Below, piece after piece: positions 13,210 to 44,410 of a DNA stretch of 59,728 nt; the stretch's first letter is position 1; each line of letters begins with the position of its first letter. The notes below the pieces were generated by a model. The model was not told where the DNA came from and searched no databases. It worked only from the letters and a program-made list of their open reading frames with translations. The position numbers were made by a program, and so were the translations under genes. Origin of the DNA: Candidatus Levilactobacillus faecigallinarum (lineage in GTDB: Bacteria; Bacillota; Bacilli; Lactobacillales; Lactobacillaceae); the NCBI GenBank assembly GCA_019113985.1, contig DXGJ01000016.1:1-59728 (forward strand). The letters run 5' to 3'.

Positions 13210-13375
13210 TTACTGGCCGCTCCGTTCCGCCGGTACCGTGGCACCGTAGTGGGCACGACTCCGAAGCTACACGAAGCCCACGTGCATCTCCGGAGCTCGG
13301 CCTTGGTGTAACCCAGCTGAGAAACGCTGGCTAACACCAACGACACCACGGTGCCACAAACCGGCTCCACTGCGC
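13210..13375 (-). repeat. structured three-way-junction repeat, copy A
   Basis: Minus-strand copy of the dispersed element. The closing stem GGCACCGTGGTG / CACTACGGTGCC is extended by GCCGGT / ACCGGC. Hairpin P2 has TTGGTGT...ACACCAA arms and hairpin P3 has CTCCGGAG / CTTCGGAG and GCACG / CGTGT arms. Linkers TCG, GGCCGAG and TCGTGCC are intact. It begins 40 bp after the YdbT-like terminator. No open frame uses it sensibly. Confidence 0.8.
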
Positions 13376-13654
13376 TGATGTTGTGGGTAATTGCTATGTA
13401 TATTTCGTGCATGATACATCAATTGCTTGCCGTCTATGGATAATTGCTCATGACATGATTTCGTCAATTATTCAAAATTTCTGATAGCTGTCAGAGTTTC
13501 AGTAATCATCTGTTCTGCAAAGATAGTGGCATCGCGCTTCTATGTGACCAATTATCAGCTAGGCTAACCAGTATATCAATTATTGGCAATGCTCGACTGG
13601 AACGTGGTAGTAACCAGCTAAAGGACTTTCGTAAGCAGTTTTCGCAATCATAGC

Positions 13655-13800
13655 GGCGCGGAGCCGACTTTGGCACCGTGGTGAAATTGTTGTAAAGCGA
13701 CATTCTTGGTCGCTTTACAACAAGGCCGAGTTCTCGAGACAAGTGGGCTACTTGGCTTGAGAATCGTGCCCACTACGGTGCCAATACTCGGCACCACCAA
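13655..13800 (+). repeat. structured three-way-junction repeat, copy B (diverged)
   Basis: Closing stem 13672-13683 with 13771-13782. P2 is a perfect 15-bp stem, 13687-13701 with 13709-13723, of different sequence from the other copies. Linker GGCCGAG is 13724-13730. P3 is 13731-13744 with 13750-13763; linker TCGTGCC is 13764-13770. The first linker is AAA rather than TCG. It is oriented opposite to copy A, 280 bp away, and followed 47 bp later by a strong terminator palindrome. Confidence 0.8.
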
Positions 13801-13846
13801 CGACAAATAGTATTCCTGACACCGACTAATGATGATGCACCAACGC

Positions 13847-13878
13847 AAAAAAGCCAACGGCATGCCGTTGGCTTTTTT
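13847..13878. terminator. perfect palindromic terminator downstream of repeat copy B
   Basis: A fully symmetric 32-bp element: A-run, AGCCAACGG arm, CATG centre, mirrored arm and T-run. It can terminate on both strands. No protein gene ends here, so it would serve a transcript crossing repeat copy B. Confidence 0.75.
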
Positions 13879-14006
13879 GTTGTCCCAGTAACGTTCCCCA
13901 ACGTTGCTGAGCTCCCCTTGAAACGTCCCCAGTTCCCCGCTGTGACGCTTCTGTGTGATGCAAAATTATCTCTACTCTTTAGCCGATTTACGTGTGAATC
14001 CCCCCA

Positions 14007-14033
14007 GGCCGCCGCACTGTGGGCGACCTTTTT
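14007..14033 (+). terminator. orphan plus-strand terminator-like hairpin
   Basis: GGCCGCC / GGGCGACC stem with a short loop, followed by TTTTT. Flanking 13880-14127 has no gene I can support. It does not serve the leftward ABC operon, whose T run would be on the other strand. Confidence 0.45.
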
Positions 14034-14127
14034 ACGGCTAACGCTCGCAGTCGTTAACCTTTATCTAAGATAGTAGCACCAATTCTCACTAGCGCTGTTA
14101 AAGAAAAGGTAAAGCTAGTTTCAACGA

Positions 14128-15054
14128 TTAGCTCTCATGACGTCGGTGCCATGTCCCCGTAAGGGGTGGCCGCCAGAGCCACCAGTACCCGAAGACCGTG
14201 GTGATGATAAACGTGACCACAGCCGGCTCCAGGTCGGTCGCATTCACCGTGAACAGTGCGGTCATGTAGACCACAAACACGATGTACACGGGAGTCCGCA
14301 GCGCCGGGAACATCAGGTATTCGCCAACGTGTTCCAGCGTCACCCGGTCATAGAGGTAGGCCCCCCAGACCAACAAAATCACGGTGACGGTTAACCAGAG
14401 GCCCACCGACAACCATTCTAATTGACTGGTTGTCCATTTAGCCAATAGTCCCTGAACAAAAGTGGCGACCCCAATCAGTGAAATCGTGAAGCCCCCCAAG
14501 GTCACCAGAAGCGACCAAGTCTGCCCCAGAATCAACGCAGCGAACCACGCGATGGCAAAGAAGCCCCAGGACATGGCCAGGTTGACCACCCAAGTAGTGA
14601 TGAATCCCGGCCAAGCGAAGTTAAACGTCATCCTGGCCGGAATGTTCAGCCAGTAAACGCCATACTGGGCGGCCATGGTCAGCACCGTAATCACCAGCAG
14701 GCCACCAAACGCCAGGGCCAATTTGGTCCAGTAAATCGTGTGTCGGCGATACCCACTGGCAAAGAGAAACTGATCGAAGTTCTCGCGCCGGTCTTGGTAG
14801 ACCAACACGATGCCCACCAGCCAATAGATGAAAACCACCCAGTAGGTGTAAAAAGAAACGCTGTACCGGGGGTCGTTATAAACCTGCCACTTGGTGATGT
14901 CCGCCGTAAAGAAGTCACTGGTGGTCATCAAAGCCTGCCAGTTGGTCGAATTCAAGATGGCCAACCCCACGCCGATAACCACGGACAAGACCAGTAGCGC
15001 CCAGAAACGGGTCCGGTAGCGCCGCCAGAGTAAACGGTTTAAGCTTTGCGTCAT
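14128..15054 (-). CDS. ABC transporter membrane protein (second permease of YtrA-regulated operon)
   Basis: 308 aa with an N-terminal MTQSLNRLLWRRYRTRFW followed by about seven hydrophobic segments and a large loop after the first one, the pattern of ABC-2 type permeases. It is clearly a paralogue of the preceding gene's product (shared LLWR.Y start, WVVFIYWLVG / LWFIYWLTG and PVYIVFVVYMT / PVYVVFVTYMT). AAAGGGG lies upstream of the ATG at 15054. It is the last gene of the GntR-ATPase-permease-permease operon. The substrate is unknown; in related operons roles in cell-wall antibiotic response are described. Confidence 0.8.
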   Translation of the reverse strand: MTQSLNRLLWRRYRTRFWALLVLSVVIGVGLAILNSTNWQALMTTSDFFTADITKWQVYNDPRYSVSFYTYWVVFIYWLVGIVLVYQDRRENFDQFLFASGYRRHTIYWTKLALAFGGLLVITVLTMAAQYGVYWLNIPARMTFNFAWPGFITTWVVNLAMSWGFFAIAWFAALILGQTWSLLVTLGGFTISLIGVATFVQGLLAKWTTSQLEWLSVGLWLTVTVILLVWGAYLYDRVTLEHVGEYLMFPALRTPVYIVFVVYMTALFTVNATDLEPAVVTFIITTVFGYWWLWRPPLTGTWHRRHES

Positions 15055-15105
15055 TTACTTCCCCCCCTTTACCGTGACGTGGCGCCGATGCCGACGATCC
15101 ATGAT

Positions 15106-16005
15106 TTACGGCCACCACAGCCAGCAATAGCCAAAGGCCGCCGAAATAATCGCAACGGACAGCGTTGGAATCAGGTACTCACCATTGCCAGCGAACAGGA
15201 AGGTCATGTACGTCACGAAGACCACGTAAACCGGTACGCGGAGGCCGGGGAACATTAAGTACTTCCCGTTGTTCTCCAGTGGCAGCCGGTTATAGAGCCA
15301 GGCACCCCAGAGAAGCAGGACCACAACGCCCGCCGTCCACACGCCGATGGTCAGCCAGTTGCGAACACTCATCGATAAGTCGTATTTCAGCGTCTGGGTG
15401 GAAATAAAGCCACCAACGCCAATCAGCGAGAAGGTGAAACCCGCTGCCGTGACCAGCAACGGCCCGGTTTGCCCAATAATCAGTGAGGCGAACCAGGTGA
15501 TAGCAAAGGCGCCTAAACTTGTCGCTAGGCCCATCGCCCAGCTGGTCAGGAGTCCCGGCCAGGCCAGGTTGATGACCACCTGTGAATCGAGTTTGAGCCA
15601 GTAGATACCGAAGTGAATCAGCGACGTCAGCACCGTCAGTGCTAGCAACGTGCCGACACCGATTAGGAGCTTGTGCCAATAAATCGCACTGCGCCGGTAA
15701 CCACTGGTAAAGAGAAACTGATTAAAGTTATCCTTGAGGTCTGACTGCATCAGCAATACCCCGGTCAACCAGTAGATGAACCACAGGCCGTTGGAGTAGA
15801 GCGCCAACGTGCCGTAACCGGCGCCACTCGAGTAAACCTCCCACTTGGTAATCTGATTTGAGAAGAGGTTGGTCCCGGGCTTAACACTCCAGCTTCCGGT
15901 ATCCGACAGGGCTAGGAACAACACCGCCAGTAACGCAATTGCCGAGATGGCCGTCAGCCGTTTGCCATAGTGCCGCCAAAGAAGTCGGGTTAAATTTTTA
16001 TTCAT
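15106..16005 (-). CDS. ABC transporter membrane protein (first permease of YtrA-regulated operon)
   Basis: 299 aa, about seven membrane segments with an extracytoplasmic loop after the first, beginning MNKNLTRLLWRHYGKR. It is a paralogue of the downstream permease, so the pair probably arose by tandem duplication and forms a heterodimeric membrane domain. It begins 13 nt after the ATPase gene's stop. The stop-to-start gap to the next permease is about 50 bp. Confidence 0.8.
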   Translation of the reverse strand: MNKNLTRLLWRHYGKRLTAISAIALLAVLFLALSDTGSWSVKPGTNLFSNQITKWEVYSSGAGYGTLALYSNGLWFIYWLTGVLLMQSDLKDNFNQFLFTSGYRRSAIYWHKLLIGVGTLLALTVLTSLIHFGIYWLKLDSQVVINLAWPGLLTSWAMGLATSLGAFAITWFASLIIGQTGPLLVTAAGFTFSLIGVGGFISTQTLKYDLSMSVRNWLTIGVWTAGVVVLLLWGAWLYNRLPLENNGKYLMFPGLRVPVYVVFVTYMTFLFAGNGEYLIPTLSVAIISAAFGYCWLWWP

Positions 16006-16018
16006 GTTTACCGTCCCC

Positions 16019-16909
16019 CTACTTCATCATTTGGTAGCCGGTGTCCGTCGCCAGGTTGGCCCGGAACAAGTCCTCCAGCGTCAACGGTAGCTCCTCGAAC
16101 AGGACCGGCTGTAACGCCCGTAACTGCTGGTCGAGGTCGGCCGTGTAGTCCGGAAAGACCACGACCAGAACCCGACCGGAGACCCGAATCAACTGACTAT
16201 TATCCTTAAGTAAGGCCGGAATCTGCTTGTCCTTAAAGACCAGTTGAACCTTTTTAGCCTTGGCCCGGACGTCTTCCAGATTGTAATCGTGAGCTAACCG
16301 GCTGTCCTTCAACAGCAGGACTCGGTCACTCAACCCGTCCAGTTCGTTCAGGTCATGGGACGAAATCAGGAAACCTTTAGTCTGGTCGGCCACCTCGTCG
16401 ATCACCATGCTGGCGATGTTCTCCCGGACGATGACGTCCAAGCCATCAAACGGTTCATCCAAGATAATGTAGGTCGCGTTAGACGTTAGCGCCAGAATCA
16501 CGTTGACCAGCGCCCGCATCCCCTTGGAGAGCCGGCGATATTGGTCCTGGGGGTCCAACTTAAAGTGGGCCAACAGGTCGCGGTACCGTTGCTGGTCAAA
16601 GCCCGTGTAAACCAGGCTGTAGAAGTCGGGCAACTCGCGCAAGCGGTAGTTGCCTAGAAAGTTGTACTGGGTGTCGATGAAGAAGAGCTGCCGTTGGTAG
16701 AGCGGCTCCCGTACCAGATCGTGATCGTCGATGGTCACACGCCCACTTTCGGGCAAGTACTGGCGACTCATGGTCCGAAATAACGTGGTTTTACCGACGC
16801 CATTTCGACCGACCAGCCCCATGATTTCCCCGGGTTGCCAGTCAAAACTAATGTCTTCAATGATGGCGCGATGGTCGATGGTTTTACTCAATTTGCTGAC
16901 ACGTAACAT
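16019..16909 (-). CDS. ABC transporter ATP-binding protein (YtrB-like)
   Basis: 296-aa ATPase. Walker A GRNGVGKTT at about residues 34-42, a shortened signature LSKGMRAL around 128-135, Walker B with catalytic Glu in YIILDEPFDGLD around 152-163, and the switch His in SSHD. A C-terminal extension of about 80 residues follows the ABC domain, as in YtrB/BcrA-type exporters. Its ATG abuts the GntR gene's stop (16909/16910). It would energise the two downstream permeases. Confidence 0.88.
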   Translation of the reverse strand: MLRVSKLSKTIDHRAIIEDISFDWQPGEIMGLVGRNGVGKTTLFRTMSRQYLPESGRVTIDDHDLVREPLYQRQLFFIDTQYNFLGNYRLRELPDFYSLVYTGFDQQRYRDLLAHFKLDPQDQYRRLSKGMRALVNVILALTSNATYIILDEPFDGLDVIVRENIASMVIDEVADQTKGFLISSHDLNELDGLSDRVLLLKDSRLAHDYNLEDVRAKAKKVQLVFKDKQIPALLKDNSQLIRVSGRVLVVVFPDYTADLDQQLRALQPVLFEELPLTLEDLFRANLATDTGYQMMK

Positions 16910-17281
16910 CTAATCAGCCTCCTCATATGCCGTTTTAATCCACCCAATGACCTCGTCGGCCGGAACGCCTAGGTAGCGAATCTCGGTCAACAACGTCTTC
17001 AGGCGCTGCTTGGTTGCGATAATCTGGGTCGTGTTGTCGGTCTCTTGGTCCGACTCCCGCACGTAGGTTCCCTTGCCGTGAACCGTCATGATGACTTGCT
17101 GGGTCTCTAATTGCTTGTAGGCCTTGCTCACCGTGTTCGGGTTCAACTGCTCTTGCCGGGCCATGTCCCGGACGGACGGCAGGCGATCGCCCGGTTGTAA
17201 GATGCCACGGACAATCTGCTGCTTGACCTTTAAGACCAGCTGCTCATAGTAGGGCAGGCTGGATCTGTCATTCACTTGCAC
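16910..17281 (-). CDS. GntR family regulator, YtrA subfamily
   Basis: 123 aa. N-terminal winged helix: PYYEQLVLKVKQQI, then the recognition region LPSVRDMARQEQLNPNTVSKAYKQLE and a wing GKGTYV at about residues 60-70. The short helical C-terminal tail marks the YtrA subfamily. I chose the GTG at 17281 (VQVNDRS), with GGGG 8 nt upstream. The frame is open to 17437, but that stretch contains the promoter and operator. It probably represses its own operon, and is the first gene with the ABC genes following directly. Confidence 0.85.
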   Translation of the reverse strand: MQVNDRSSLPYYEQLVLKVKQQIVRGILQPGDRLPSVRDMARQEQLNPNTVSKAYKQLETQQVIMTVHGKGTYVRESDQETDNTTQIIATKQRLKTLLTEIRYLGVPADEVIGWIKTAYEEAD

Positions 17282-17331
17282 GTCCTTCACCCCTTTTGTT
17301 CTATGTCCCATTCTCGTGCGACGTGTTCTGC

Positions 17332-17376
17332 GTGTACTATTATACACAGTACACTCAAAAATACAATAGGCGTTAA
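17332..17376 (-). promoter_or_regulatory. promoter with overlapping GntR operator
   Basis: Minus-strand -10 TATAAT lies inside a 23-bp inverted repeat (17332-17354) with perfect 7-bp arms GTGTACT / AGTACAC. A TTGTAT -35 hexamer sits 16 bp upstream. A repressor bound here would cover the -10 element, consistent with autorepression by the YtrA-type protein. Confidence 0.78.
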
Positions 17377-17436
17377 TACTCATGGTACCAAGCACGTATC
17401 TCTGAACACTGTGCCCCCAGATTTTCCGTTGCCCCA

Positions 17437-18627
17437 TTAACGTGTCTCCAGAGTGTCATCTTCTGGTAGCCGGACACGCAAGAGGCACACCATTGCCGCT
17501 AAGGTAACCATGGCCCCCAAGATAAAAACGTTCGCCAGCTGAATCCGACTGGCCAAAACCCCACCCAATAAAGTCCCAACCGGCAATGACAGGTTCGTGC
17601 TGGCCAACATGGCCCCGTTAACGCGTCCGAGAAGCCTGCTAGGCGTCTGTTGCTGAATTAATGTGTAAATGGAAACGTTCAGAAAACCGGCTGCCAGACC
17701 AATCGCCAGTATCATACTGAGGGTCCCAACGAGATTTCGGCTAATTGCCAAGACTAATGTCGCTAAGCCCATCATGGTTAACGCACCGACCAAGCGTCGT
17801 TTCAGCGACCAGGCCACCAGGTTGACCAAAATATTTCCCAGAATGACCCCAACAATCAAAAACATCTGCATGAAACTATACATCACTGCGGGGGCGTGAA
17901 GAATGCCGCGAACCCACACCACATCTAACCCCATGACGGGGCCCAACGTCAGATTTACTAGCAGCGCTAGCCCCACGACCACACGAAGAACTGGCTGGTG
18001 TACCAGATACCGAAGTCCCGCCGACCAACGGCCGACCGACCGGGCTTTGACAGATCGGGTTTCCTGGCCGCTCAACCGATAGCTAACGATTGCAACACAC
18101 AGCCCGGAAATCACGAAGCTAACACTGTTAATCACCAGAAACCCCGTTAAGGAAACGCTGGTCACTAAAACACCCCCTAGCAACATACCGGCCATCTCCA
18201 TCAGCATCCCCACGCCCTGATTCAGACTGGTTGCCCGTCGTAGCTGATTTTCCTGAACTAACCGTGGAATCAGGGCCATCTCAGCGGGCCCAAAAAACGT
18301 TCCCAAGAGCCGCGTCGAAAAGGTCACGGTGACTAGTCCAACTAGCGTCAAAGCCGTCCGTGAAAACAGGAGTGCCCCACCCAACATGCACCCTGCCTGC
18401 AGACCATCGATCAGCAGCATGATTTTGGTCTTCGCATACTTATCCGCTAAGAATCCCGTCAGGACCTCCAGAACGACCAGTCCGTTAAAAACTGCCGACA
18501 CGCCGCCAATTACGACCGTGTTACGCGTCAACCGGTAAAGTGTCCACATGATGGCAATATCAAACAAATTACTTCCTAATTGGGAAGCCGCTTCGCCACC
18601 GACCAAGATATAAAAGTTCGTTTTCAT
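17437..18627 (-). CDS. MFS transporter
   Basis: 396-aa major facilitator with about twelve membrane segments and MFS features such as LADKYAKTKIMLLIDG after the second segment (motif A position). It resembles the MefA/enterobactin-exporter-like branch (long hydrophobic runs, GGVLVTSVSLTGF around residue 150). I took the ATG at 18627 (MKTNFYI), with AAAGGAGAGGGG upstream. It is divergent from an Rgg-type regulator gene 98 bp away, which is the natural candidate for its control. The exported substrate cannot be inferred. Confidence 0.82.
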   Translation of the reverse strand: MKTNFYILVGGEAASQLGSNLFDIAIMWTLYRLTRNTVVIGGVSAVFNGLVVLEVLTGFLADKYAKTKIMLLIDGLQAGCMLGGALLFSRTALTLVGLVTVTFSTRLLGTFFGPAEMALIPRLVQENQLRRATSLNQGVGMLMEMAGMLLGGVLVTSVSLTGFLVINSVSFVISGLCVAIVSYRLSGQETRSVKARSVGRWSAGLRYLVHQPVLRVVVGLALLVNLTLGPVMGLDVVWVRGILHAPAVMYSFMQMFLIVGVILGNILVNLVAWSLKRRLVGALTMMGLATLVLAISRNLVGTLSMILAIGLAAGFLNVSIYTLIQQQTPSRLLGRVNGAMLASTNLSLPVGTLLGGVLASRIQLANVFILGAMVTLAAMVCLLRVRLPEDDTLETR

Positions 18628-18725
18628 CGTTAGAATCCCCTCTCCTTTGAATTGGGGAAATCCTAACATGTGGTGTATCATCGGTTTATCAAATTCAACT
18701 ATCAAAGAATTTTGGAGATGAGCGC

Positions 18726-19583
18726 ATGTTATCAACTGGCGAAACACTTAGACAGATTCGACAATCTAAGGGGCTCACACTAAAGGAAGTGGCGTCTGAC
18801 CAGCTCTCGGTTGCCTTCCTGTCCAAGGTCGAACGTGGGGACTCCGACATCTCGTTGGGCCGCTTCGAGAATTTACTGGAGCGGTTACGTACCACCTACG
18901 ACAAATTTTCCTTTATCAAACACAACCTGACACTTTCACCGCAAATCACCTTCTGGCGGCAAGTCGCCACGTTCGTCCGTTCCCATAACGTCTATGGCCT
19001 ACAACGACTTTATACGGCCGAAAAGGACTTAGCCGCTAATTCACAATCGCCACATTTCCACAATATGATAATTCTTCACTGTCACCTGTGTCGGCTACAA
19101 AGCCGCCAACTCCCCGTGGCTGAAGTCAAAGTCCTCCACGATTTTTTGTTTACCATTGATTCCTGGGGTGGTTACGAACTTGGAGTCTTCACCCACGCCA
19201 TGTTCCTTTTTCCGACGGACGAACTGCAAACCCTCACCCAAACCGCGTTGAAGAAATCGCAAGTCTACTTAGATTTACCAGGCTACCACGATTTACTTGC
19301 CACTTTATTGGGCAACGCGCTTGCCCAGTTGCTCACTCACCACCAATGGGCCGCCGCCCAACGAATCAGTGTCCAGGCGCAACACTTAATTGATTTTGAA
19401 GATCTCTCGACCGAAAAGAGTCAGATCCTGCTACTCACGGCCTGGCTAAATCAGCAACACGCGACTGGGGCCATCACCGTACCACCTGAAACCGTCATCC
19501 AGGCTTGTTACGATTTGGCGGCACCTAACTGGTCGAACACACTGTACGAACAGCTAACTACCCTTAACCATTCCCACGCCTAA
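18726..19583 (+). CDS. Rgg/GadR/MutR family transcriptional regulator
   Basis: 285 aa. N-terminal XRE-type helix-turn-helix (LRQIRQSKGLTLKEVAS...FLSKVERGDSDISL, residues 8-45), followed by an all-helical TPR-like region to the end. That is the Rgg layout, where the C-terminal domain often senses a short hydrophobic peptide. The ATG at 18726 follows TTTGGAGATG. I looked for a small peptide gene in the 98-bp divergent gap and see none. The obvious target is the divergent MFS gene. Confidence 0.82.
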   Translation: MLSTGETLRQIRQSKGLTLKEVASDQLSVAFLSKVERGDSDISLGRFENLLERLRTTYDKFSFIKHNLTLSPQITFWRQVATFVRSHNVYGLQRLYTAEKDLAANSQSPHFHNMIILHCHLCRLQSRQLPVAEVKVLHDFLFTIDSWGGYELGVFTHAMFLFPTDELQTLTQTALKKSQVYLDLPGYHDLLATLLGNALAQLLTHHQWAAAQRISVQAQHLIDFEDLSTEKSQILLLTAWLNQQHATGAITVPPETVIQACYDLAAPNWSNTLYEQLTTLNHSHA

Positions 19584-19621
19584 AAAGCGTTCCGGCCACA
19601 ATGAAGGTCGAAACGCTTTTT
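19582..19621. terminator. bidirectional terminator between the Rgg-type and EamA-type genes
   Basis: AAAAAGCGTT / AACGCTTTTT outer arms with an imperfect inner stem. The two genes converge here. Confidence 0.82.
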
Positions 19622-19631
19622 GGTAGTTTTT

Positions 19632-20507
19632 TTATTGCCGGGCCGAGACCACTAACCCGCCAATCGTCAGGAGAATTCCCAGGATGACCAACGGTGTAAT
19701 GGGTTCGTGGAGAATCAGCCAGGCTGTGACCACGGTCACCACTGGTACCAGGTAGATGTAGATGCTGGTCTTGACGGTTCCCAGGTGCTTAACCGCGTAA
19801 GCCCAACTCAGGAAACACAGGGCCGAGGCACCCAGTCCCAGGAACAGGAAGTTCACCAGGTTGTCGCCCTGCATGATTTTACCCAGGTCGACCTGCCCGT
19901 GGGTCGCAAAAAAGACCGGCAGGATAAAGATGATTCCGTAAATAAAGGTCCGGCGGGTCACCTGAACCGGGTTATAGCCCAGCGTGTTCATGTAACTGAC
20001 CACGTAGGAGTACAGCGCCCAGATCAACGCCGCCAGTAGGGCCAAGAGGTCCCCGGCGATGTTAACGTGGACCCCACTGCCGTTCAACGAAATCAGCGAG
20101 ATGCCGACCATCGAGCAGAGAAACCCCAGTAAGAACTGCCGGGTCAGCTTTTGCCGGCCCAGTGCCGCCGCAATCAGCGCGATGAACAGGGGCGACGTCG
20201 AGACGATCACCCCGATGTTTGAGGCGTAGGTGAAGGTCAGCGCGACGTTTTCAAACAGGTAGTACAGGCAGATACCCAGCAGCCCCGCCGCGGCAAACGC
20301 CCCTTCAACCTTCCAGCTGGTGAACTTAAAGAACTTGGGGTAAATCACGAACAGGCCGACCAGCCCGATAACGAACCGAATCAGCAAGATTTCCAGCGGT
20401 GCAAAGTCGGTCAACAGGACCTTAGTGGAGATGTAGGTGATGCCCCACAGGAAAATCGTTAGGAGCGCGACAAAGTGGCCCCGTAATTGGCGTTCTGGTT
20501 GTTGCAT
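19632..20507 (-). CDS. EamA/DMT family transporter
   Basis: 291 aa with ten predicted membrane segments arranged as two EamA repeats (about 10-140 and 155-288). Characteristic WGITYISTKVLL lies near the N-terminus and LGTVKTSIYIYLVPVVT near residue 240. Members export amino acids or metabolites. The ATG at 20507 follows AGAAGGGA. It is monocistronic with a terminator at each side. Confidence 0.85.
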   Translation of the reverse strand: MQQPERQLRGHFVALLTIFLWGITYISTKVLLTDFAPLEILLIRFVIGLVGLFVIYPKFFKFTSWKVEGAFAAAGLLGICLYYLFENVALTFTYASNIGVIVSTSPLFIALIAAALGRQKLTRQFLLGFLCSMVGISLISLNGSGVHVNIAGDLLALLAALIWALYSYVVSYMNTLGYNPVQVTRRTFIYGIIFILPVFFATHGQVDLGKIMQGDNLVNFLFLGLGASALCFLSWAYAVKHLGTVKTSIYIYLVPVVTVVTAWLILHEPITPLVILGILLTIGGLVVSARQ

Positions 20508-20591
20508 AGTTACAAATCCCTTCTCTAATAAACTCTCTCATGCGCGGCGCTGTGCCCAACGCCGGGTGAAACGGTTGGTTCAATGGGGGCA

Positions 20592-20646: not shown

Positions 20647-20672
20647 TTAAGGCCCTTTAGTCGTCTGGTTAC

Positions 20673-30177: not shown

Positions 30178-30376
30178 ATATTCGGCTTATTAAAAGTGCG
30201 TACGTTCTCCTTTATCTCACAGTTAGCTCAAAAGTAGTGGCCTAAATAACATATCCCATTTGGGCATTCGCCAAGGCCCCATCCACTAACCTATCAGAAC
30301 ACCTTTCCTCAAAAACTGGCTGGCAAAATTCAGGGATTCTATCTTTAATATTAATCACTCTGTAAGCCGTGAGGGC

Positions 30377-30513
30377 GGCCCAGGGGAGTCTCAGGTGTGT
30401 CGTTTGGGTTAGTCGGGGGGAACTTCCCGACTTAGCCAAAGGCCGAGCTTGAAGACTCGCGGGGTTGGCGAGGCTTCAAGTCGTGCCCACGCCGGTCCAG
30501 CCTCTCCTGGGCC
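30377..30513 (+). repeat. structured three-way-junction repeat, copy F (most diverged stems)
   Basis: The closing stem has a different sequence from the other copies: 30377-30391 pairs with 30499-30513, and 30392-30399 with 30488-30495. TCG linker at 30400-30402. P2 is 30403-30417 with 30426-30440. GGCCGAG linker at 30441-30447. P3 is 30448-30460 with 30468-30480. TCGTGCC linker at 30481-30487. It lies just past the 3' end of the LysR gene (minus strand), in the opposite sense. Confidence 0.75.
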
Positions 30514-30542
30514 AACCGGTAGGCGGGGCGGCAATCCCCGCA

Positions 30543-31421
30543 CTACCCCCGCAACTTCTGCGCCAAGTCCTGATAATCGGCGGCGAAGAAGCTGTCGCGG
30601 AGGTAGACCAGGTCCAGGTCGTGTTCCAACTGACCGGCCGGCAACGGCAGCTCCTTGACCAGGCCCGCGTGTAACTCGCTGGCAACCACCGAGCGGTACA
30701 CGAAGCTGACGCCGACGTTGGCCAAGACCAGCTGACGAATCGCCGCGGGGTGGTTGACCGTGACCAGCTGGGCAAAGTCCGCCAGGGTCACGTTGGCCGC
30801 CTGCGCCAGGTGTAAGAGGATGTCGCGGCTCCCCGACCCCAACTCCCGGATAATCAGCGGGTACTGGGTCAGGTCGGCCCAACTCAGGGTCGTCTTCCGG
30901 GCCAAGGGGTGGTCCGCCGCCACGATACCCACGAAGGGCTCGTGCCGAATCACCTGGTAGCCGTACGCACGTTTATCAAAGTTTCCTTCAATCAATGCGA
31001 AGTCACTCTTCCCGGTCTGGAGCGCGTGGAGAGCCGTCTGGGTATTGGTAATGCGACAGTTGATCTCGTGGTAGCGGTCCTGTTGCTGGAGCACCCGAAC
31101 CAGCTGCGGCGCTAAGAATTCACTCAGCGATAGCGTGGTACTGAAGCTGATCCGCCGGTGTTGCGCCGGTTGACGTAGGTCACGCAATAATTTTTGGGAT
31201 TGGGCCTGGGTCCGCTGGATGAACGCCGCCAACTGGTGACCGGCCGGCGTGATGGTCAGGTAAGGCCGCTGGTAATGCACCAGGGGCACACCGACCTGGT
31301 CTTCTAAGCTGTGAATCTGTTGGGAAACGGCCGGTTGGGTGATAAACAATTGCTCGGCCGTGCGGGTGTAGGACTTGGTCGCCACCAGGACTAAAAAGGT
31401 TTGATACCGTTGATCGAACAT
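30543..31421 (-). CDS. LysR family transcriptional regulator (CysL/YeiE-like)
   Basis: 292 aa. N-terminal winged helix (TFLVLVATKSYTRTAEQLFITQPAVSQQIHSLE, residues 8-41) and a periplasmic-binding-like effector domain from about residue 90. Divergent from a YeiH-type membrane protein gene 113 bp away. A LysR/YeiH pair in this arrangement is common in bacteria, and the regulator is expected to control the transporter and itself. The C-terminal domain is GC-richer than surrounding genes. Confidence 0.88.
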   Translation of the reverse strand: MFDQRYQTFLVLVATKSYTRTAEQLFITQPAVSQQIHSLEDQVGVPLVHYQRPYLTITPAGHQLAAFIQRTQAQSQKLLRDLRQPAQHRRISFSTTLSLSEFLAPQLVRVLQQQDRYHEINCRITNTQTALHALQTGKSDFALIEGNFDKRAYGYQVIRHEPFVGIVAADHPLARKTTLSWADLTQYPLIIRELGSGSRDILLHLAQAANVTLADFAQLVTVNHPAAIRQLVLANVGVSFVYRSVVASELHAGLVKELPLPAGQLEHDLDLVYLRDSFFAADYQDLAQKLRG

Positions 31422-36245: not shown

Positions 36246-36255
36246 AATTGGTCAT

Positions 36256-37852: not shown

Positions 37853-37933
37853 AACTAAAAGACGCCCCTTCCTCAAATTAGATGACTACTGGTACCCCTT
37901 CATGATACCGCAAAAAAGTGAGGACCACCCAAC

Positions 37934-37962
37934 TAAAAAATCGTCGCACGCGGCGACGATTC
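37934..37962 (-). terminator. terminator of the LPQTN surface-protein gene
   Basis: Minus-strand AATCGTCGC / GCGACGATT stem with a T6 run, between the surface protein and the oxidase gene. Confidence 0.85.
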
Positions 37963-37980
37963 CTTAAGTCTCTGATTGTA

Positions 37981-39372
37981 TTAGTTGTGGAAACGAACCA
38001 CACCCACCGTAACCAGACCAGCTAAAAGCGCTGCTCCAGTAATCGGTGCCCAGTTACGTTGCTCGTTGGTCTGGGGCAACTTGCCGCGGGTCGTATGCCG
38101 GGCCTTCGCGTGACTGACCAGTGCAGCTGGCTTGGCCGCCTGATGCTTGACCGTGGCGTGCTTAGTCGCCGTCTTGGTCGTATCCTTGGCCTTGGCTGGC
38201 GTCTTGCTAGGCTTTTGCTTGTTCGCTTGGGCCTCTTCCTCGGCCTCACGTTCAGCTTCTTCCTCCGGCGTTTCGGTACCACCATCAGTATCCACGTCCG
38301 GCGTGCCATCGGGGTCTAGGTCACCGTTAACGTCGGGCTCTACATTGATATCATCTTCATCGTCCTTACCTTCGTTGTTCTCATCAACGTCGGTATCACC
38401 GTTATTTCCAGCGTTCCCGTTACCACTCCCCTCGTTCTTGCTGGTCGTGGAGACCTTGCCGCTGGCGTTATCCAGGTTGGGCCCACCGTTGGTTCCGGCG
38501 CCCCATTTCATCTGGGCGTCGTTAGTGAAGACATAGCCGTCATCGATCACGGACGTATCCGTAATCTTGGTGGTGTAGTCGATGACCACCATCTGCTCAA
38601 CAGGCTTCTTGAACTTCAAGTTAAAGCCACTGTCGCTATAAGTAACCGTATAGTCGTCGGCCGATACTGGCGTGTTTTCCCGGATGTAGGTGCCCCCGAC
38701 AATATCGTCGACCCAGTAGGCTTCGGAAACCTTGACGGGTGGAACCATAGTTTGCTTGGGGCCAATCGTATCAGCGATTTCCAAGTTCTTCATAGTCAAG
38801 TTTTGCCGGTTGACCACTACCGACCACTTAATGGTGTTGTCGTCTTGAATCGTGCCTTTCTTGGTCATGTTGTCCAGGTCCGGTTCGATGTTGATTTGAT
38901 CCGTGATGTTGTTCGGGAAATTGACCGGCTGCTCGCCAAATTTTTTATCGTTGTACTTGGTGGCAATCTTCAAGTCCAGCACCTTATCGGTCAACCCCTC
39001 GGCCTTTTCGTTTAAGGTAACCTCAATCGTGTTGCCACCCTTGGCGACGGTTGCCGTCCCAATCACGGTCTTGCCATCGGGACCGGTCACGTTAAACGTA
39101 TCGGACTTGGATGACTTTAAATTATCGGGCAACGGAATTGAAATCACGTCACCACTATGTAAAGGCGTATCGCCAAACTCTAAGTGATATTCTACGTTGA
39201 TGGTCGAATTGACCTTAAAGTTCGGGCCGTTGAGCACCTTCGCGCTGGTCACGTAGGAGCTCCCATCAATGGTCGCAGCCTGGGCCGTAACCTGCTGCTG
39301 GCCCAGAAATACCATGGCGACCATGCTAACCAGCATGATGAGCCATTTGATTACTGAACGATTATTCTTCAA
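37981..39372 (-). CDS. LPXTG-anchored adhesin-like surface protein
   Basis: 463 aa exported by Sec and attached to peptidoglycan by sortase. Signal peptide (about 1-33), then two Ig-like/collagen-adhesin-type beta domains (about 35-170 and 175-295, e.g. HSGDVISIPLPDNLK and TIKWSVVVNRQNLTMKN, the latter a usual fibrinogen/collagen-binding pattern). Next an acidic stalk (DGDTDVDENNEGKDDEDD), a Lys/Thr-rich wall segment and LPQTN at 432 with a hydrophobic tail. Ligand unknown. Confidence 0.86.
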   Translation of the reverse strand: MKNNRSVIKWLIMLVSMVAMVFLGQQQVTAQAATIDGSSYVTSAKVLNGPNFKVNSTINVEYHLEFGDTPLHSGDVISIPLPDNLKSSKSDTFNVTGPDGKTVIGTATVAKGGNTIEVTLNEKAEGLTDKVLDLKIATKYNDKKFGEQPVNFPNNITDQINIEPDLDNMTKKGTIQDDNTIKWSVVVNRQNLTMKNLEIADTIGPKQTMVPPVKVSEAYWVDDIVGGTYIRENTPVSADDYTVTYSDSGFNLKFKKPVEQMVVIDYTTKITDTSVIDDGYVFTNDAQMKWGAGTNGGPNLDNASGKVSTTSKNEGSGNGNAGNNGDTDVDENNEGKDDEDDINVEPDVNGDLDPDGTPDVDTDGGTETPEEEAEREAEEEAQANKQKPSKTPAKAKDTTKTATKHATVKHQAAKPAALVSHAKARHTTRGKLPQTNEQRNWAPITGAALLAGLVTVGVVRFHN

Positions 39373-39471
39373 AATGATCCCCTCCTGAAACTTGTTCTCG
39401 TCCTAAAGTATACGCGCCATTCACTGGGGGTTCCAGCTGATTTAAGCAATCGCTCTCAAAACTTGCCAGCA

Positions 39472-39510
39472 AAAAGGCCGGTCACGCCGCTAAAGCGTGT
39501 AACCGGCCGA
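39472..39510 (-). terminator. terminator of the HesB-like gene
   Basis: Minus-strand GGCCGGT / ACCGGCC arms followed by five T. Confidence 0.8.
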
Positions 39511-39524
39511 TTGTCACCCACCAT

Positions 39525-39929
39525 CTAGCAGATGCGGGTGCCCAACGTTTGCATTTCCTTCTTTAAATCGAGCTTAGACTTCTCTTCGGCGGTGTAGGTC
39601 ACCAGACCCACCGCACTGTCCAACATCCCGCTGTCATCGTGGAGCGCCAGCTGGTTGTGGGCCCGGTCCAAGACCAGTCCGTTACCCAAGTAGATGGCGT
39701 CATCCTTGCTGGTAAACAGCTGGTAACCGTCTGCGTTGTCGAGGGGCACCTGGTAGGCCGGGTCAGGCTCGGTCAGTGCCACGACTTGGAACTTGTTCCC
39801 AATGGCACAGGAGCCGCCCAAGGTCGAATAACGGTTGGACCCGTCGTCGGTGGTCAACAACAGAATTCCCGTGGTGTCCACGTGCGCTTCCAGGTAAGCC
39901 TTAGCGTCGTCTTTGATTTTGATTTGCAT
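39525..39929 (-). CDS. HesB/YqkB-like iron-sulfur cluster biosynthesis family protein
   Basis: 134 aa. It starts MQIKIKDDAKAYLEAH, followed by ILLLTTDDGSNRYSTLGGSCAIGNKF and a C-terminal Cys. Single cysteines at GGSC and RIC rather than the three of classic A-type scaffolds place it in the YqkB-like subgroup of lactobacilli, whose role is uncertain. ATG at 39929 follows GAGAGGG; the frame extends 12 codons upstream. Confidence 0.75.
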   Translation of the reverse strand: MQIKIKDDAKAYLEAHVDTTGILLLTTDDGSNRYSTLGGSCAIGNKFQVVALTEPDPAYQVPLDNADGYQLFTSKDDAIYLGNGLVLDRAHNQLALHDDSGMLDSAVGLVTYTAEEKSKLDLKKEMQTLGTRIC

Positions 39930-40031
39930 AAGCAATGCCCTCTCTTTCTCAAAACACATTCGCAATTAAATTGCGTACAATTATTTTATACGCCTTTCCC
40001 CGGTTCTTGTAAAGCAAAGCGCTCACCTACT

Positions 40032-40072
40032 AAAAAATCGGTGCGACCCCCGACGGGCCTGCACCGATTTTT
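40032..40072. terminator. bidirectional terminator downstream of the GntR gene
   Basis: AAAAAATCGGTGC / GCACCGATTTTT stem with a long GC loop. It ends the leftward GntR/ABC operon. Confidence 0.85.
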
Positions 40073-40114
40073 CAAAATTTGACGTTGATATTGCGGAAAT
40101 AGCTCTGTGACGGA

Positions 40115-40483
40115 CTAATTGGCGTAGGCTCGCCGAATCAACACGACGACCTCGTCTTCAGAAAGGTTCAGTTTCTGGGCCTCGTCGGTGAAGCGGCTGA
40201 CGTAGCGCTCGTAAAACTCGGCCCGGCGCTTCTCGCGAATCATCGTCGCTGCCTCGGCTGTGACGAACATCCCGACCCCGCGGCGTTTCGCAATCATCCC
40301 CGCGTCTACCAACCGGTTCATCCCCTTGAGGACGGTCGCCGGATTGATGTGGAACTGCTTGGAGACCTCCGTGGTGGAAGGCACTTGCTCGCCCGCCTGA
40401 TAGACCCCCGTGAAGATGGCTTCTTCGACCTGCTCGGCCACTTGTAAATAGATGGGTTCTGGACTATCAAAATTAAATCTCAT
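40115..40483 (-). CDS. GntR family regulator (YtrA-like)
   Basis: 122 aa. Winged helix with PIYLQVAEQVEEAIFTGVYQAGEQVPSTTEVSKQFHINPATVLKGMNRL (residues 10-58), a wing RRGVGMFV and a short helical tail. It is the last gene of the operon after the BceA/BceB-like ABC pair. A GTTAxTTAC-type operator over the promoter of the ATPase gene is its likely target. The Shine-Dalgarno is weak. Confidence 0.85.
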   Translation of the reverse strand: MRFNFDSPEPIYLQVAEQVEEAIFTGVYQAGEQVPSTTEVSKQFHINPATVLKGMNRLVDAGMIAKRRGVGMFVTAEAATMIREKRRAEFYERYVSRFTDEAQKLNLSEDEVVVLIRRAYAN

Positions 40484-40514
40484 TTCGCTATCTCACATTC
40501 TTCTTGAACTCGTC

Positions 40515-42338
40515 TTAGTCCTGCAAGGTTTCGCTCGGCATGACCAGGTTCAGGTACAGCCCCAGCGTGATCAGGTAATAAACCACGTACAGGCCAATGA
40601 AAATCAGGAAGGTGCTCCCAATACCCAGGTACGGGCTCATTGGGGCACCCATCAGGGGTTTAAACATCTGTAACCCGAACAAGACGTCTACGATTCCCAT
40701 GATACCAGGAATTGCGAATAAAATCCCGATTTCTTTTGCCAGACCCCCACGCATCAACGACCGGCGCACGCCAATCTTGTTGAGCATCGCGTACCGCCGC
40801 AGGTCGCCAGGAGCACCGGATAGAATCTTGAACATCAGGCATGACGCCAACATGGCCAGGAAGGCGATCCCCAGGAAGTACCCGATGAACTCAAGGCCCC
40901 CGAAGATACCATTCATCATCTCGAAGGCTTCGTAAGTCCCAACGGTTACCGCCCCGCTCTCCGCCGCGGGAAATCGCTTCTGTTCACTCTGGTCGAGCTG
41001 CTTCAGAACCTTCAGGTCATCGCTCATATGCTTGACCCGGACCGTGGTAACCGTGTACGTCCGCCCCTTCAGTTGATCAAAGGCCTTGGCCGAAACAATC
41101 TTCGGTTGCGCAAAGTCACCTAACTTATTAGGATTCAACACGATAAAGTCGAGCATCGTGGCGCCACCCTTTTTGAATTTCGCCAAGGACTCCGTGTAGA
41201 AGGTTGGTTTGCCACCGGTTTTCTGGGTGGGCTTGGCCATTTCAAAGGGTTGGGCCTTTAACTCGGCCGCGTTGTAGTACGTAGTCTTACCCACGACTTT
41301 CTGGGTGTAGGTGGCCTGATGCGCCACGTTTAACTGCTTCATCAGTGATTTCTGGTGGGCGTTGGCGTTGTGCACAGCCACACTGTAGCTCCCCAGGGAG
41401 TCGGCGGTCATCGGCATCTGCCGGTGGTACCCGGACCCCACGGTGATGGCACCCAAGGCCATGGCGAAGAGTAACGACACGATGGTCAGCATCCGCGTGT
41501 AGTCGTGAACCCGGAAATTCAGTTGGCCGAGTAAGAACCCGTTCAGGTGCTTCTTGGCCCAAGCCGTCTTGCGCAGGCCCCGGATGATGGCCAGGACCGT
41601 CGCGTGGAACAAGAAATAGGTCCCAAGCGTGATGGTCACTAAGGCGATTGGAATGGCAACTACTTCGAGTTGTTCAATTGCTGCTAAGGCCCAATAACCG
41701 ATGGCCAACAAGATAATCCCCGTGACACCGGCGATAAATTGCCGCCCGGGGCGGACCTTGGGCTGGTTGGCCTCTTGGTCGGCGTGCAGGAGCTTTTGGA
41801 CCGTGGTCCGCATCAGGCGCGTCAGGTTAAACAACGACGCCAGAATAAACAACCCGATGTACAGAACCGCCGTGAAGATGATGGCGGGAACGTACAAGGA
41901 GGTCAGGTGACTCAGGTGCAGGCCCAACTGGTCGAGCAGGAAGCCTACCAGGAACTTACTGGCAAAAATCCCCAAAACAATCCCGATGACCGTCGCTACG
42001 GATCCTAAGATCAGCGTTTCTAAGAAGACCAATTCCCCGACGCGCTTACGCTTAGCCCCCAGCATCATGAACAGCCCGTAGTCGTGCTGGCGCATGCTGA
42101 GCAGAAACGAGTTGGCGTACATGATATAAACAATCGTGATTAGGGCCAATAACACCGCCCCAAACCCGAAGACAACAGTTGCCGACTTGACGACCGCGTT
42201 GGCCTTGATGAAGGCCTGGTTGGTCGCCAGGTTGGCGAACATGTAAAAGATGGCTGCGGACATGGTCAATCCCGCGAGAAGGACCAGGTAATCGCGCCGC
42301 CGGTTTTTAATCCCGGCTAAAGCTAATTTCGTTAACAT
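40515..42338 (-). CDS. FtsX-type ABC transporter permease (BceB-like)
   Basis: 607 aa, about ten membrane segments with a large extracellular domain between segments seven and eight (about 290-480), the BceB pattern. Start MLTKLALAGIKNRRRDYLVLLAG; FtsX signature FMMLGAKRKRVGELVFLETL around residue 90. Such permeases sense or export cell-wall-active peptides, usually with a two-component system; here the regulator is GntR instead. It follows the ATPase gene by 14 bp. Confidence 0.86.
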   Translation of the reverse strand: MLTKLALAGIKNRRRDYLVLLAGLTMSAAIFYMFANLATNQAFIKANAVVKSATVVFGFGAVLLALITIVYIMYANSFLLSMRQHDYGLFMMLGAKRKRVGELVFLETLILGSVATVIGIVLGIFASKFLVGFLLDQLGLHLSHLTSLYVPAIIFTAVLYIGLFILASLFNLTRLMRTTVQKLLHADQEANQPKVRPGRQFIAGVTGIILLAIGYWALAAIEQLEVVAIPIALVTITLGTYFLFHATVLAIIRGLRKTAWAKKHLNGFLLGQLNFRVHDYTRMLTIVSLLFAMALGAITVGSGYHRQMPMTADSLGSYSVAVHNANAHQKSLMKQLNVAHQATYTQKVVGKTTYYNAAELKAQPFEMAKPTQKTGGKPTFYTESLAKFKKGGATMLDFIVLNPNKLGDFAQPKIVSAKAFDQLKGRTYTVTTVRVKHMSDDLKVLKQLDQSEQKRFPAAESGAVTVGTYEAFEMMNGIFGGLEFIGYFLGIAFLAMLASCLMFKILSGAPGDLRRYAMLNKIGVRRSLMRGGLAKEIGILFAIPGIMGIVDVLFGLQMFKPLMGAPMSPYLGIGSTFLIFIGLYVVYYLITLGLYLNLVMPSETLQD

Positions 42339-42352
42339 CTGCCACGGCCCCC

Positions 42353-43108
42353 CTATTCGCTAAACGTGCCCAATTCGGTCAAAATCTGTTGGTAAAAGTC
42401 CTTTCGGTCCAACTCGCCGCGTTTCAACTCGGACCCAATCTGCCCGTCCTTGATGAACAGGATGCGTTGGCAGAAGCTGGCGGAGAATGGATCGTGGGTC
42501 ACCAGCAACACGGACATATGTTGTTCGCGGTTGATGGTGGTCAGCAGGTCTAATAGCTCGCGGGCGCTGGTTGAATCCAGGGCACCGGTGGGTTCGTCAC
42601 CCATCAGGATTGACGGCTTGTGGACGATGGCCCGGGCAGCGGCGACCCGTTGCTTTTGACCCCCGGATAATTCGTTGGGGTACTTCTTTAAGAGGTCGCT
42701 GATGGACAGGGTCTCGGCCACGGTGTGGATGGCCTGGTCCATGATTTTGGAAGAGGTCCCCTTCAAGGCCAGTGGCAGGCCGATGTTTTCTTCGGCAGTT
42801 AGGCTTTCTAGCAAGTTAAAATCCTGGAAGATGAACCCGACTTCTTGGGCCCGGAAGTCGGCCAGTTGGTTGCCGCGCATCTTGGTCACGTCATGACCGT
42901 TAACGATGACGTCGCCGTTAGTCGGTGTGTCCAGCGTGGACAACATGTTCAACAGCGTGGTCTTCCCCGACCCCGACGCCCCCATGATGCCGACGAATTC
43001 ACCCGCGGCGACCGAGAAGTTCAGGCCCTTCAGCGCCGTGTACTGGCGTTCGTTAGCCTTCCCGTACGTTTTTTCCAAGTTGTGGACATCAACAACTGCA
43101 TTACTCAT
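42353..43108 (-). CDS. ABC transporter ATP-binding protein (BceA/MacB-like)
   Basis: 251 aa. Walker A GASGSGKTT (about 43-51), Q-loop FIFQDFNLL, signature LSGGQKQRVAAARA (about 144-157), Walker B ILMGDEPTGALDS and switch His in VTHD. Typical partner of an FtsX-type permease (downstream). First gene of the operon; start ATG follows GGGGGAA. Confidence 0.9.
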   Translation of the reverse strand: MSNAVVDVHNLEKTYGKANERQYTALKGLNFSVAAGEFVGIMGASGSGKTTLLNMLSTLDTPTNGDVIVNGHDVTKMRGNQLADFRAQEVGFIFQDFNLLESLTAEENIGLPLALKGTSSKIMDQAIHTVAETLSISDLLKKYPNELSGGQKQRVAAARAIVHKPSILMGDEPTGALDSTSARELLDLLTTINREQHMSVLLVTHDPFSASFCQRILFIKDGQIGSELKRGELDRKDFYQQILTELGTFSE

Positions 43109-43138
43109 GGTTAAATTCCCCCGTTTGTTAGTTCATTG

Positions 43139-43186
43139 GTTAGTTACTTGTGTAATTAACTATAACGGTTCTTGGGGAAAAGTCAA
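43139..43186 (-). promoter_or_regulatory. promoter with GntR operator, ABC/GntR operon
   Basis: Minus-strand TTGACT (43181-43186), 16-bp spacer, TATAGT (43159-43164). Immediately downstream lies the near-perfect inverted repeat GTTAATTAC-ACAA-GTAACTAAC (43139-43160), fitting a GntR dimer. Confidence 0.82.
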
Positions 43187-43229
43187 CCTTAAATTCAAAA
43201 TCTGTTTTTAGACGAGGCTGGCAGCTGTG

Positions 43230-43395
43230 GCCGTTGTTGCCAGCTCCGTTCCGCCGGCACCGTGGCTCCGTAGTGGGCACGACTAGGAAGCCTCGAAGAT
43301 CACGAGTCTCCCTAGCTCGACCTTGGTCTAAGCTGAGTAACCCCCTCAGCTAAGACCAACGACACCACGGTGCCACAAACCGGCTCCACTGCGCT
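43230..43395 (-). repeat. structured three-way-junction repeat, copy C
   Basis: Minus-strand copy. Linkers are TCG, GGTCGAG (one change) and TCGTGCC. P2 arms TTGGTCTTAGCTGAG / CTCAGCTTAGACCAA; P3 arms CTAGGGAGACTCG / CGAGGCTTCCTAG. Closing stem carries GGAGCC in place of GGTGCC on one side. It lies upstream of the ABC operon promoter in the same sense as those genes. Confidence 0.8.
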
Positions 43396-43985
43396 AACTC
43401 TTGAGAAGCTGGCAACTAAGCGAATAAGCTAAACTGCTTCATTCAGTTACAGAATCTGTTATTGGTCATCATGGTTACCTATTCAAAGAATCTGAATTGG
43501 GGGCATTCATCCTCGCTCAAGCAGAATTCACCGCATCTCCCGCAAATCAAAAAGGTTAGTTAAATACTCATACGAATCGGAAAACATACTATACCAATTT
43601 TTACTCATGTTAGGCTCAATCAATGCAGTTATATCGTGGCATTCAAGCCCTTAGCGCCAACCGATGATGCCAACGAATTACTTGTGACATCCACCGAAAC
43701 TGCCTACCATAGTTGGTGGAATTTCTACCATAACAAAAACAATACCGGTACTACTTTTACCAAAAACTAATGCAATCACGTAGCCAGAATAATGCGTTTA
43801 GGAACGCCAGTATGGCTGTCTACGCACAACGGTATTGTGGTATCAATGTCGTGAAATCATTAGCAACGGCCAATATTGACGCAAGCATTACCGCCGTTTA
43901 TTGCCAGCATCGTGGTTGCCACTAATAACAAACAATGCCAACACCACAACACCCACACAGTATCGCCGCCAGAACCACCAACATA
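43396..43985. other. gene-free AT-rich stretch between repeat copies C and D
   Basis: No gene with an RBS. A frame open at about 43755-43922 (plus) has no start codon with RBS and resembles nothing known. The DNA is less GC-rich than its surroundings, suggesting decayed sequence. Confidence 0.5.
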
Positions 43986-44150
43986 GCGTAACGGAGCCGG
44001 TTTGTGGCACCGTGGTGTCGTTGGTGTTAGCCGGTGTTCCTCAGCCGGGTTACACCAAGGCCGAGCTCTGGAGACCCGCGACTTTGCGGGGCTTCAGAGT
44101 CGTGCCCACTACGGTGCCACGGTGCCGGCGCAGTGAAGCGAGCAACAACG
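43986..44150 (+). repeat. structured three-way-junction repeat, copy D
   Basis: All linkers intact. P2 TTGGTGTTAGCCGG / CCGGGTTACACCAA; P3 CTCTGGAGACCCGC / GCGGGGCTTCAGAG. Preceded by a CGCCGCCAGAACCACCA segment also found before copy E. Confidence 0.85.
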
Positions 44151-44243
44151 ACTAACATCACCAGTTTCATCGTAGCCTGTAACAACAATCGTTGCCAATC
44201 ACACCACACCCAACGCCACATCGCCGCCAGAATCACCACCATC

Positions 44244-44410
44244 AGCGCAACGGAGCCGGTTTGTGGCACCGTGGTGTCGTTGGTGTTAGCCGGTGTTTCT
44301 TAGCCGGGTTACACCAAGGCCGAGCTCCGGAGACCCGTGGGCTTTACGGGGCTTCGGAGTCGTGCCCACTACGGTGCCGCGGTACCGGCGCGGTGAAGCG
44401 GGCAACAACG
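44244..44410 (+). repeat. structured three-way-junction repeat, copy E
   Basis: All linkers intact. P3 CTCCGGAGACCCGT / ACGGGGCTTCGGAG. Arranged as a tandem duplicate of copy D with a unit of about 258 bp, including the CGCCGCCAGAATCACCA flank. Upstream of the aldo/keto reductase gene and in the same sense. Confidence 0.85.

Follow-up and report, generated by a model that had tools for sequence, protein, structure and literature searches.

Three loci with structured arms

We analysed a 59,728-nucleotide (nt) stretch of the genome of Candidatus Levilactobacillus faecigallinarum (contig DXGJ01000016.1; hereafter the window), in which a preliminary description had noted six copies of a structured repeat. 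The six copies, here called arms, are real and share one fold, a three-way junction of a closing stem P1 and two hairpins, P2 and P3. We consider them probable members of a Lactobacillaceae-wide, non-autonomous family resembling miniature inverted-repeat transposable elements (MITEs), whose conserved, probably strand-specific three-way-junction arms would be moved in trans. All six are full-length matches to a covariance model (CM). This model was built from 39 copies of the same genome (G000), the six window copies among them, so that their own matches are circular; independent support for the fold comes from covariation in a plain MAFFT alignment and from matches in other genera.

The window holds three loci: a divergent pair of arms at 13.2-13.8 kb (unit 1), a single arm at 30.4 kb and a group in the order minus, plus, plus at 43.2-44.4 kb (unit 3). 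Their features are as follows (bp, base pairs; ORF, open reading frame; aa, amino acids):

13167..13178, plus strand: possible left terminal inverted repeat of unit 1, TTTGTCGTTGAT, 11/12 match with 13796-13807
13204..13376, minus strand: copy A, arm of unit 1; CM core 13237-13359, 117.3 bits; TCG junction
13377..13644, no strand: unit 1 spacer; no ORF of 100 aa wholly within
13645..13792, plus strand: copy B, second arm of unit 1; CM core 13668-13785, 119.3 bits; AAA junction; perfect 15-bp P2
13796..13807, minus strand: possible right terminal inverted repeat of unit 1, partner of 13167..13178
30365..30525, plus strand: copy C, lone arm from a different subfamily; CM core 30384-30505, 80.3 bits
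43228..43395, minus strand: copy D, left arm of unit 3; CM core 43261-43378, 120.2 bits
43396..43984, no strand: unit 3 spacer; no ORF of 100 aa within
43985..44150, plus strand: copy E, right arm of unit 3; CM core 44002-44121, CM match
44244..44410, plus strand: copy F, tandem second right arm; CM core 44261-44381; 92% identical to E

The copies had been called intergenic, which holds relative to the recognised neighbouring genes, but two ORFs that are unlikely to be coding overlap copy A (13029-13412, minus strand, running into the left edge of the unit 1 spacer) and copy C (30409-30882, minus strand). P1 reaches further outward than the ends first assigned to the copies, and the flanks are common to other copies. 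Two assignments were corrected: in coordinate order, the variant GGTCGAG, attributed to copy C, sits in the copy at 43230, and differences in all stems, attributed to F, characterise the copy at 30377, whereas F closely resembles the copy at 43986. Unit 1 has a paralog on contig C64 of the same genome with 82.7% identity over 13218-13792, arms and spacer together, and the region of copy A (13201-13400) is 83.5% identical to a copy elsewhere in this genome. Copy C ends in CCAACCGGTAGGCGG, resembling the CGCCTTACCGG-ended elements of Levilactobacillus genome G022, and shows 77-80% identity over ~160 bp to elements of this type in other species. The ten window proteins scanned, including those adjoining the copies, belong to ordinary families, one being without a family.

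Fold of the arm and its covariation

An arm spans ~110-165 nt with a CM core of ~120 nt. P1 is long and nearly free in sequence in its outer part; it is joined to P2 by 3 nt (TCG or AAA in the window, ACA or AAA in other species), to which the open junction is limited. P2 holds an invariant single T·T mismatch, and P3 follows directly without a linker. GGCCGAG and TCGTGCC, taken in the preliminary description as unpaired linkers, are mostly paired: GGCCGA with TCG-T-GCC forms the foot of P3, whose bulged T is fixed. Other details of that description were borne out, namely the perfect 15-bp P2 of copy B and the AGA/GCTT motif of P3, which contains an A·G mismatch.

We evaluated a 46-pair structure on two alignments, (i) A1, the plain MAFFT alignment of 39 copies from G000, and (ii) A2, 150 arms (149 distinct) from at least five genera fitted to the CM. 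Two-sided compensatory changes occur at 31/46 pairs of A1, 96.4% of its cells are paired, and none of 500 column shuffles attains any of five measures. At 42/46 pairs of A2, both sides change with pairing kept; cells with two-sided changes number 1432 vs 386 in shuffles, and 93.4% of cells are paired vs 37-47% when partners are slid by 1-3 columns. Conservation reaches at least 95% in 25 columns of A2, and the unpaired columns 29, 56, 154 and 167 are fixed at 96-100% among freely varying stems. Selection on structure together with a few fixed bases, as initially proposed, is strongly supported by this covariation and these fixed columns, and the covariation extends to the larger set of 149 distinct arms.

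Two further features of the fold were observed. The basal P2 pairs (A2 columns 24-27 with 58-61) use 3-4 pair types, none of the 592 cells being G·U, in contrast to much of the remaining fold. Arms of genome G003 bear an additional hairpin, read by eye, which suggests that they may form a four-way junction.

The sense strand is probably the folding molecule

A2 contains 263 G·U and 54 A·C cells; counted by column, G·U is ahead in 25, A·C in 7 and 14 are equal (sign test, P 0.002). The corresponding cells of A1 number 116 vs 19, or 49 vs 19 without two mostly-G·U columns. The sequences are related and A2 leans toward its model, so that neither these values nor those of the covariation are clean probabilities. 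Arms lie on both genome strands, so any strand bias of replication, transcription or mutation should largely cancel, and the excess of G·U over A·C therefore indicates that one strand, the sense strand, is probably folding. As RNA or as single-stranded DNA, it is probably, though not beyond doubt, the folding molecule. The original suggestion of a functional RNA or a single-stranded DNA substrate is compatible with this one-strand bias.

A large family across Lactobacillaceae

The six window copies belong to a large family. CM searches returned 71 matches in this genome (1.76 Mb assembly, 72% complete), 131 in G022 and 88 in G003. With up to 103 candidates scored per genome, at least one match was obtained in 33 of the 35 genomes of the genus, G000 counted, and none in G021 and G042. 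Across the family, at least 113/397 genomes and at least 12/40 genera are positive at E<=1e-6, a lower bound given that 9 candidates were scored per genome under stricter filters. A blastn search with copy F matched 0/16 genomes of other families of the order.

A search of a species-genome collection with the conserved pattern returned at least 101 stretches. The 80 listed come from Levilactobacillus, Companilactobacillus, Pediococcus, Schleiferilactobacillus, Lacticaseibacillus, one metagenome-assembled Lactobacillus sp. and two records of other phyla. A CM match at E<=1e-4 is present in 76 of these 80 loci, and 77/82 pattern places overlap a match. The loci without a match are the two records of other phyla (Enhygromyxa and Hyphomonas), one of C. 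paralimentarius and one of P. damnosus, the last at a locus edge.

We also considered a plasmid or phage origin and dropped it: copy F had no blastn match in 72,556 plasmid and 50,697 phage records, two Pediococcus units had no DNA match in plasmid records, and a pattern search gave none in viral contigs. These were DNA-similarity searches, which distant relatives would escape.

Arms occur singly or back to back

Where neighbouring matches lie <700 bp apart, 119 pairs are divergent (minus then plus), 13 are tandem and none is convergent. Divided by source, the divergent/convergent/tandem counts are 47/0/2 in G022, 20/0/10 in G000, 2/0/0 in G003 and 50/0/1 in the named loci; the G022 and L. namurensis records in this count may represent one species. 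No neighbour lies within 700 bp for 180/436 matches, to which contig and locus edges contribute. Frequently a unit holds two back-to-back arms, the left on the minus and the right on the plus strand, around a spacer that is non-coding and mostly AT-richer; one-armed units also occur.

Arms of G003 initially appeared to be alone (84/88), a view that we dropped when a diverged partner motif was found upstream in minus orientation in 16/27 loci, compared with none in plus orientation and 0/54 control segments. Ends resembling CGCCTTACCG lie on both sides in 7/27 of these loci. Elements of G100 are apparently one-armed, and among 20 loci of seven further genomes, 2 have a second, divergent arm and 18 a single CM match.

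Terminal repeats and target duplications

The clearest evidence for mobility comes from Pediococcus ethanolidurans (G051), where units end in CTAAAGGTTGAAAG and its complement. These ends occur 39 times forward and 37 times in reverse (76 sites), compared with 1 and 0 for a control pattern. We sampled 18 units of 159-604 bp with none, one or two arms, some of them partial. Exact 7-8 bp target duplications flank 11/18 units vs 1/306 mismatched flank pairs. The sample comprises five armless units of 159-184 bp, five of 268-387 bp, five of 509-524 bp and three of 600-604 bp; the last hold an additional unrelated hairpin, and arm-bearing units span 268-604 bp. The arms of P. ethanolidurans are parts of a textbook MITE. 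By eye, several junctions coincide with TTCCAG or CTGGAA repeats at the feet of the arms and fit slippage deletion; arms would probably be lost by slippage between such short repeats.

Units of G022 end in CGCCTTACCGG, with 60 forward and 67 reverse sites compared with 0 and 1 for a control. Twelve align end to end, and their flanks are mostly unrelated beyond CGCCTTACCGG; two lie in a duplicated region. Nine copies in G100 are 88-98% identical over ~200-325 bp with unrelated flanks, and one of them (L241) is flanked on both sides by AGCAAAAAG, by eye a target duplication. Of the traits that define MITEs, the family is short, non-coding, dispersed to unrelated sites and present in high copy number; terminal inverted repeats are present in Pediococcus and G022, and target site duplications in Pediococcus only. 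Enclosing terminal inverted repeats were also found in some G003 units. In unit 1 of the window, the terminal repeats are short and could have arisen by chance, which makes this trait weak there; its C64 paralog carries TTTGTTGTTGATG and CACCAGCGACAAA at the corresponding end positions.

Three side observations concern the ends of units. A terminator-like hairpin with a T run lies at the left edge of unit 1 (window 13133-13170) and of its paralog (L004), and a similar one apparently at several G022 units; this hairpin could belong to the element or represent a favoured target. In G100 (L234-L242), 6/9 copies end rightward in GTTGACACTTAC, an outward -35-like box and candidate promoter element. 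A ~45-bp remnant in G022 (L063, ~1168-1213) consists of two joined CGCCTTACCGG ends without arms.

Search for the moving enzyme

One locus provides a lead. At locus L170 of Companilactobacillus halodurans, the arms of a divergent pair lie 1,047 bp apart with a broken transposase of the ISL3 family of insertion sequences between them (PF01610, E 5e-5, just above the cut-off). Two separate pieces of this transposase match, in the right order, an intact relative of 609 aa. An arm with spacer (~300 bp) lies on each side of this relic in inverted orientation, the right side carrying an extra arm remnant. The locus could represent the autonomous element in a decayed state, or two units with an ISL3 copy inserted between them. 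ISL3 elements generate 8-bp target duplications. The relic between arms is a possible link to the source, which we regard as a lead and not as a result.

Intact ISL3 elements differ from arm units in that, within arm-bearing genomes, they have no arms at their own ends. The long intact elements of G272 and G315, whose ends are simple repeats of 23-25 bp and bear no arms, were ruled out as the autonomous form; both genomes bear arms elsewhere (4 and 3 CM matches). The 17 ISL3 loci of G022, G051 and G052 showed arms at two places only, at the relic and next to one of the seven copies in G022 (L222), and not as a rule at the ISL3 ends. In the fragmented G051 assembly, paired ends were not found to enclose any gene-sized unit, and no arm is present on a viral contig that holds a remote relative of the relic. 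Separately, locus L233 of G272 carries at 528-960, close to the left of an intact long ISL3 element (1010-3007), an arm (E 3.7e-7) and its possible diverged partner.

A proposed non-autonomous element moved in trans

We propose that a DDE-type transposase supplied in trans would cut or copy the units by acting on their terminal repeats. With less certainty, the source may be an ISL3-related transposon, the MITEs being its two arm-bearing ends without the gene. Folded as RNA or single-stranded DNA, the sense strand would aid spread or persistence of the element; copies whose arms no longer fold would leave fewer descendants, and arms would be kept in this way. A more far-reaching and tentative suggestion is that the arm represents a new strand-specific folded nucleic acid in the transposition, targeting or silencing of a DDE transposon, selected across about a dozen genera in one-armed, two-armed and probably four-way forms.

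Several observations weigh against this proposal. Concerning mobility, 7/18 P. ethanolidurans units lack a target duplication by the same rule, and no duplication was seen in the inspected flanks of unit 1, none convincing in 16 Levilactobacillus (G022) units and, by eye, none in the remaining G100 units. Target duplications are retained in 3/5 armless P. ethanolidurans units, which implies that arms are unneeded for staying inserted, and perhaps for moving. Terminal repeats differ from genus to genus, with CTAAAGG in Pediococcus and CGCCTTACCG in Levilactobacillus; in G100 they are, by eye, about GTNAGTGTNAA. Concerning strand specificity, the column-wise comparison in A1 alone, including the two mostly-G·U columns, is not significant (14 vs 7, P 0.19). 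Concerning the enzyme, we found no intact autonomous arm-bearing element; a 74-aa piece of the relic matches only 4/397 genomes of the family, no ISL3 match was obtained in G004, which is 99% complete and carries at least 103 arms, and the ISL3 interiors of G272 and G315 yield only weak hairpin matches to the CM (<=15.9 bits, E ~0.01).

The family was compared with known systems. The preliminary description did not recognise it as a described family, and Rfam 15 at gathering scores gave no match on the arms for the whole window and 12 loci; a relaxed search (E up to 5) of 43200-44450 gave one chance-level snoRNA match, in a spacer. No description of the family appeared among the literature matches listed, which covered mostly open journals. 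According to the available part of PMC2229807, ERIC/IRU, Correia/NEMIS, RPE and YPAL are long stem-loops of ~100-200 bp; they resemble the present family in being small, non-coding, dispersed, strongly folded and present in many copies, and they share terminal inverted repeats and target duplications with the Pediococcus units. Here, in contrast, units of ~270-600 bp carry one or two three-way-junction arms with fixed inner bases and occur in 12 genera. The CIR elements of Caulobacter and Brucella likewise combine two structured arms, a linker and a conserved structure; they are described in the same part of PMC2229807 as two long inverted repeats with a GANTC motif, with no terminal repeats given, whereas in the present family every arm forms a three-way junction, and both terminal repeats and duplications are present in the Pediococcus units.

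Alternative explanations

The arm could instead be an independent selfish hairpin module that repeatedly entered unrelated MITEs as mere carriers. One arm core is indeed combined with differing terminal repeats in Pediococcus, Levilactobacillus and G100, and the armless units and the unrelated hairpin of the 600-bp units fit as well. Motifs outside the arms are also shared, however, namely CTGGAACG and, between Pediococcus and Companilactobacillus, TGCCGTC. This suggests that larger parts descend from a common source, and we regard such a module as unlikely.

Distinctly unlikely, in our view, is a cis-acting RNA useful to the host in mRNA 3'-end protection, RNase III processing or attenuation, functions proposed for ERIC/NEMIS in the available part of PMC2229807. 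That precedent and the sense-strand wobble bias speak for such a role, in which a divergent pair would supply one sense arm for either direction of transcription; moreover, 90 of the 95 units in the named loci are clear of any ORF of 100 aa, although 18 of the 90 are situated at a locus edge. Gene context and arm orientation do not support it. Of these 95 units, 42 lie between tandem, 15 between divergent and 15 between convergent genes, 18 at a locus edge, and 5 overlap ORFs of at least 100 aa; the 72 classified units show no clear preference, in a count based on simple ORF calling and compared without a null model. Arms between tandem genes in G003 and G100 (15 of 39 loci) are sense in 9 and antisense in 6 cases, and 13 arms overlap predicted ORFs of at least 100 aa (11/30 in G003, 2/9 in G100). 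Of 136 neighbouring proteins found, 98 were scanned, and the commonest Pfam families are ordinary (tRNA synthetase, permease). The lack of a clear preference in context and orientation, together with varied ordinary neighbours, speaks against a cis role in host mRNAs.

A REP/RAYT-like system, in which arms or arm pairs would be moved like REPINs by a tyrosine (HUH) transposase that recognises the single strand in its folded form, is improbable. REPs and REPINs share with the family inverted pairs of structured repeats, high copy number and strand-specific folding (PMC3733652, available part), and the preliminary designation as RAYT/REP-like stands only as an analogy, based on the inverted pairs of structured units. 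REPs are 20-40 bp long with a GTAG or CGTC tag (PMC3733652). Arms here measure 110-165 nt, the core being ~120 nt, and have no fixed tag: pair 15/174 at the foot is AU in 59, GU in 35, GC in 29, CG in 15, UA in 4 and other in 6 of 148 arms of A2, and GTAG is unconserved. We therefore rejected membership in REP/RAYT. The terminal inverted repeats and 7-8 bp target duplications of Pediococcus argue in the same direction; IS200/IS605-type enzymes are not known to produce such ends and duplications. Neither a RAYT nor another tyrosine transposase, nor any other transposase, was found among the 25 listed of the 133 Pfam families of the 98 neighbouring proteins, with no genome-wide search made.

Passive maintenance of pairing by template-switch correction of palindromes, which the G·U-free basal P2 pairs would fit, is highly improbable. 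Such correction would erase mismatches, bulges and G·U, yet the mismatched and bulged positions are 96-100% fixed and, outside these basal pairs, G·U is more frequent than A·C.

Implications and further observations in the window

Under the MITE-like interpretation, a large lactobacillus family joins the bacterial MITEs, with a fold that is more complex than a hairpin and conserved by compensatory change. The role of the folded part of bacterial MITEs becomes directly testable on dozens of natural variants per genome, with armless units that retain target duplications as natural controls and easily grown food bacteria as hosts. The repeats may also affect rearrangement, assembly and annotation of lactobacillus genomes.

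Elsewhere in the window, two matches exceed the Rfam cut-off, a T-box leader (1865-2063, minus strand) and a PyrR binding site (10901-11006, minus strand). Direct repeats of 36 bp lie at 56380-56631 and 59552-59695, the former inside an 879-aa ORF (55974-58613, minus strand), as in a repetitive surface protein.

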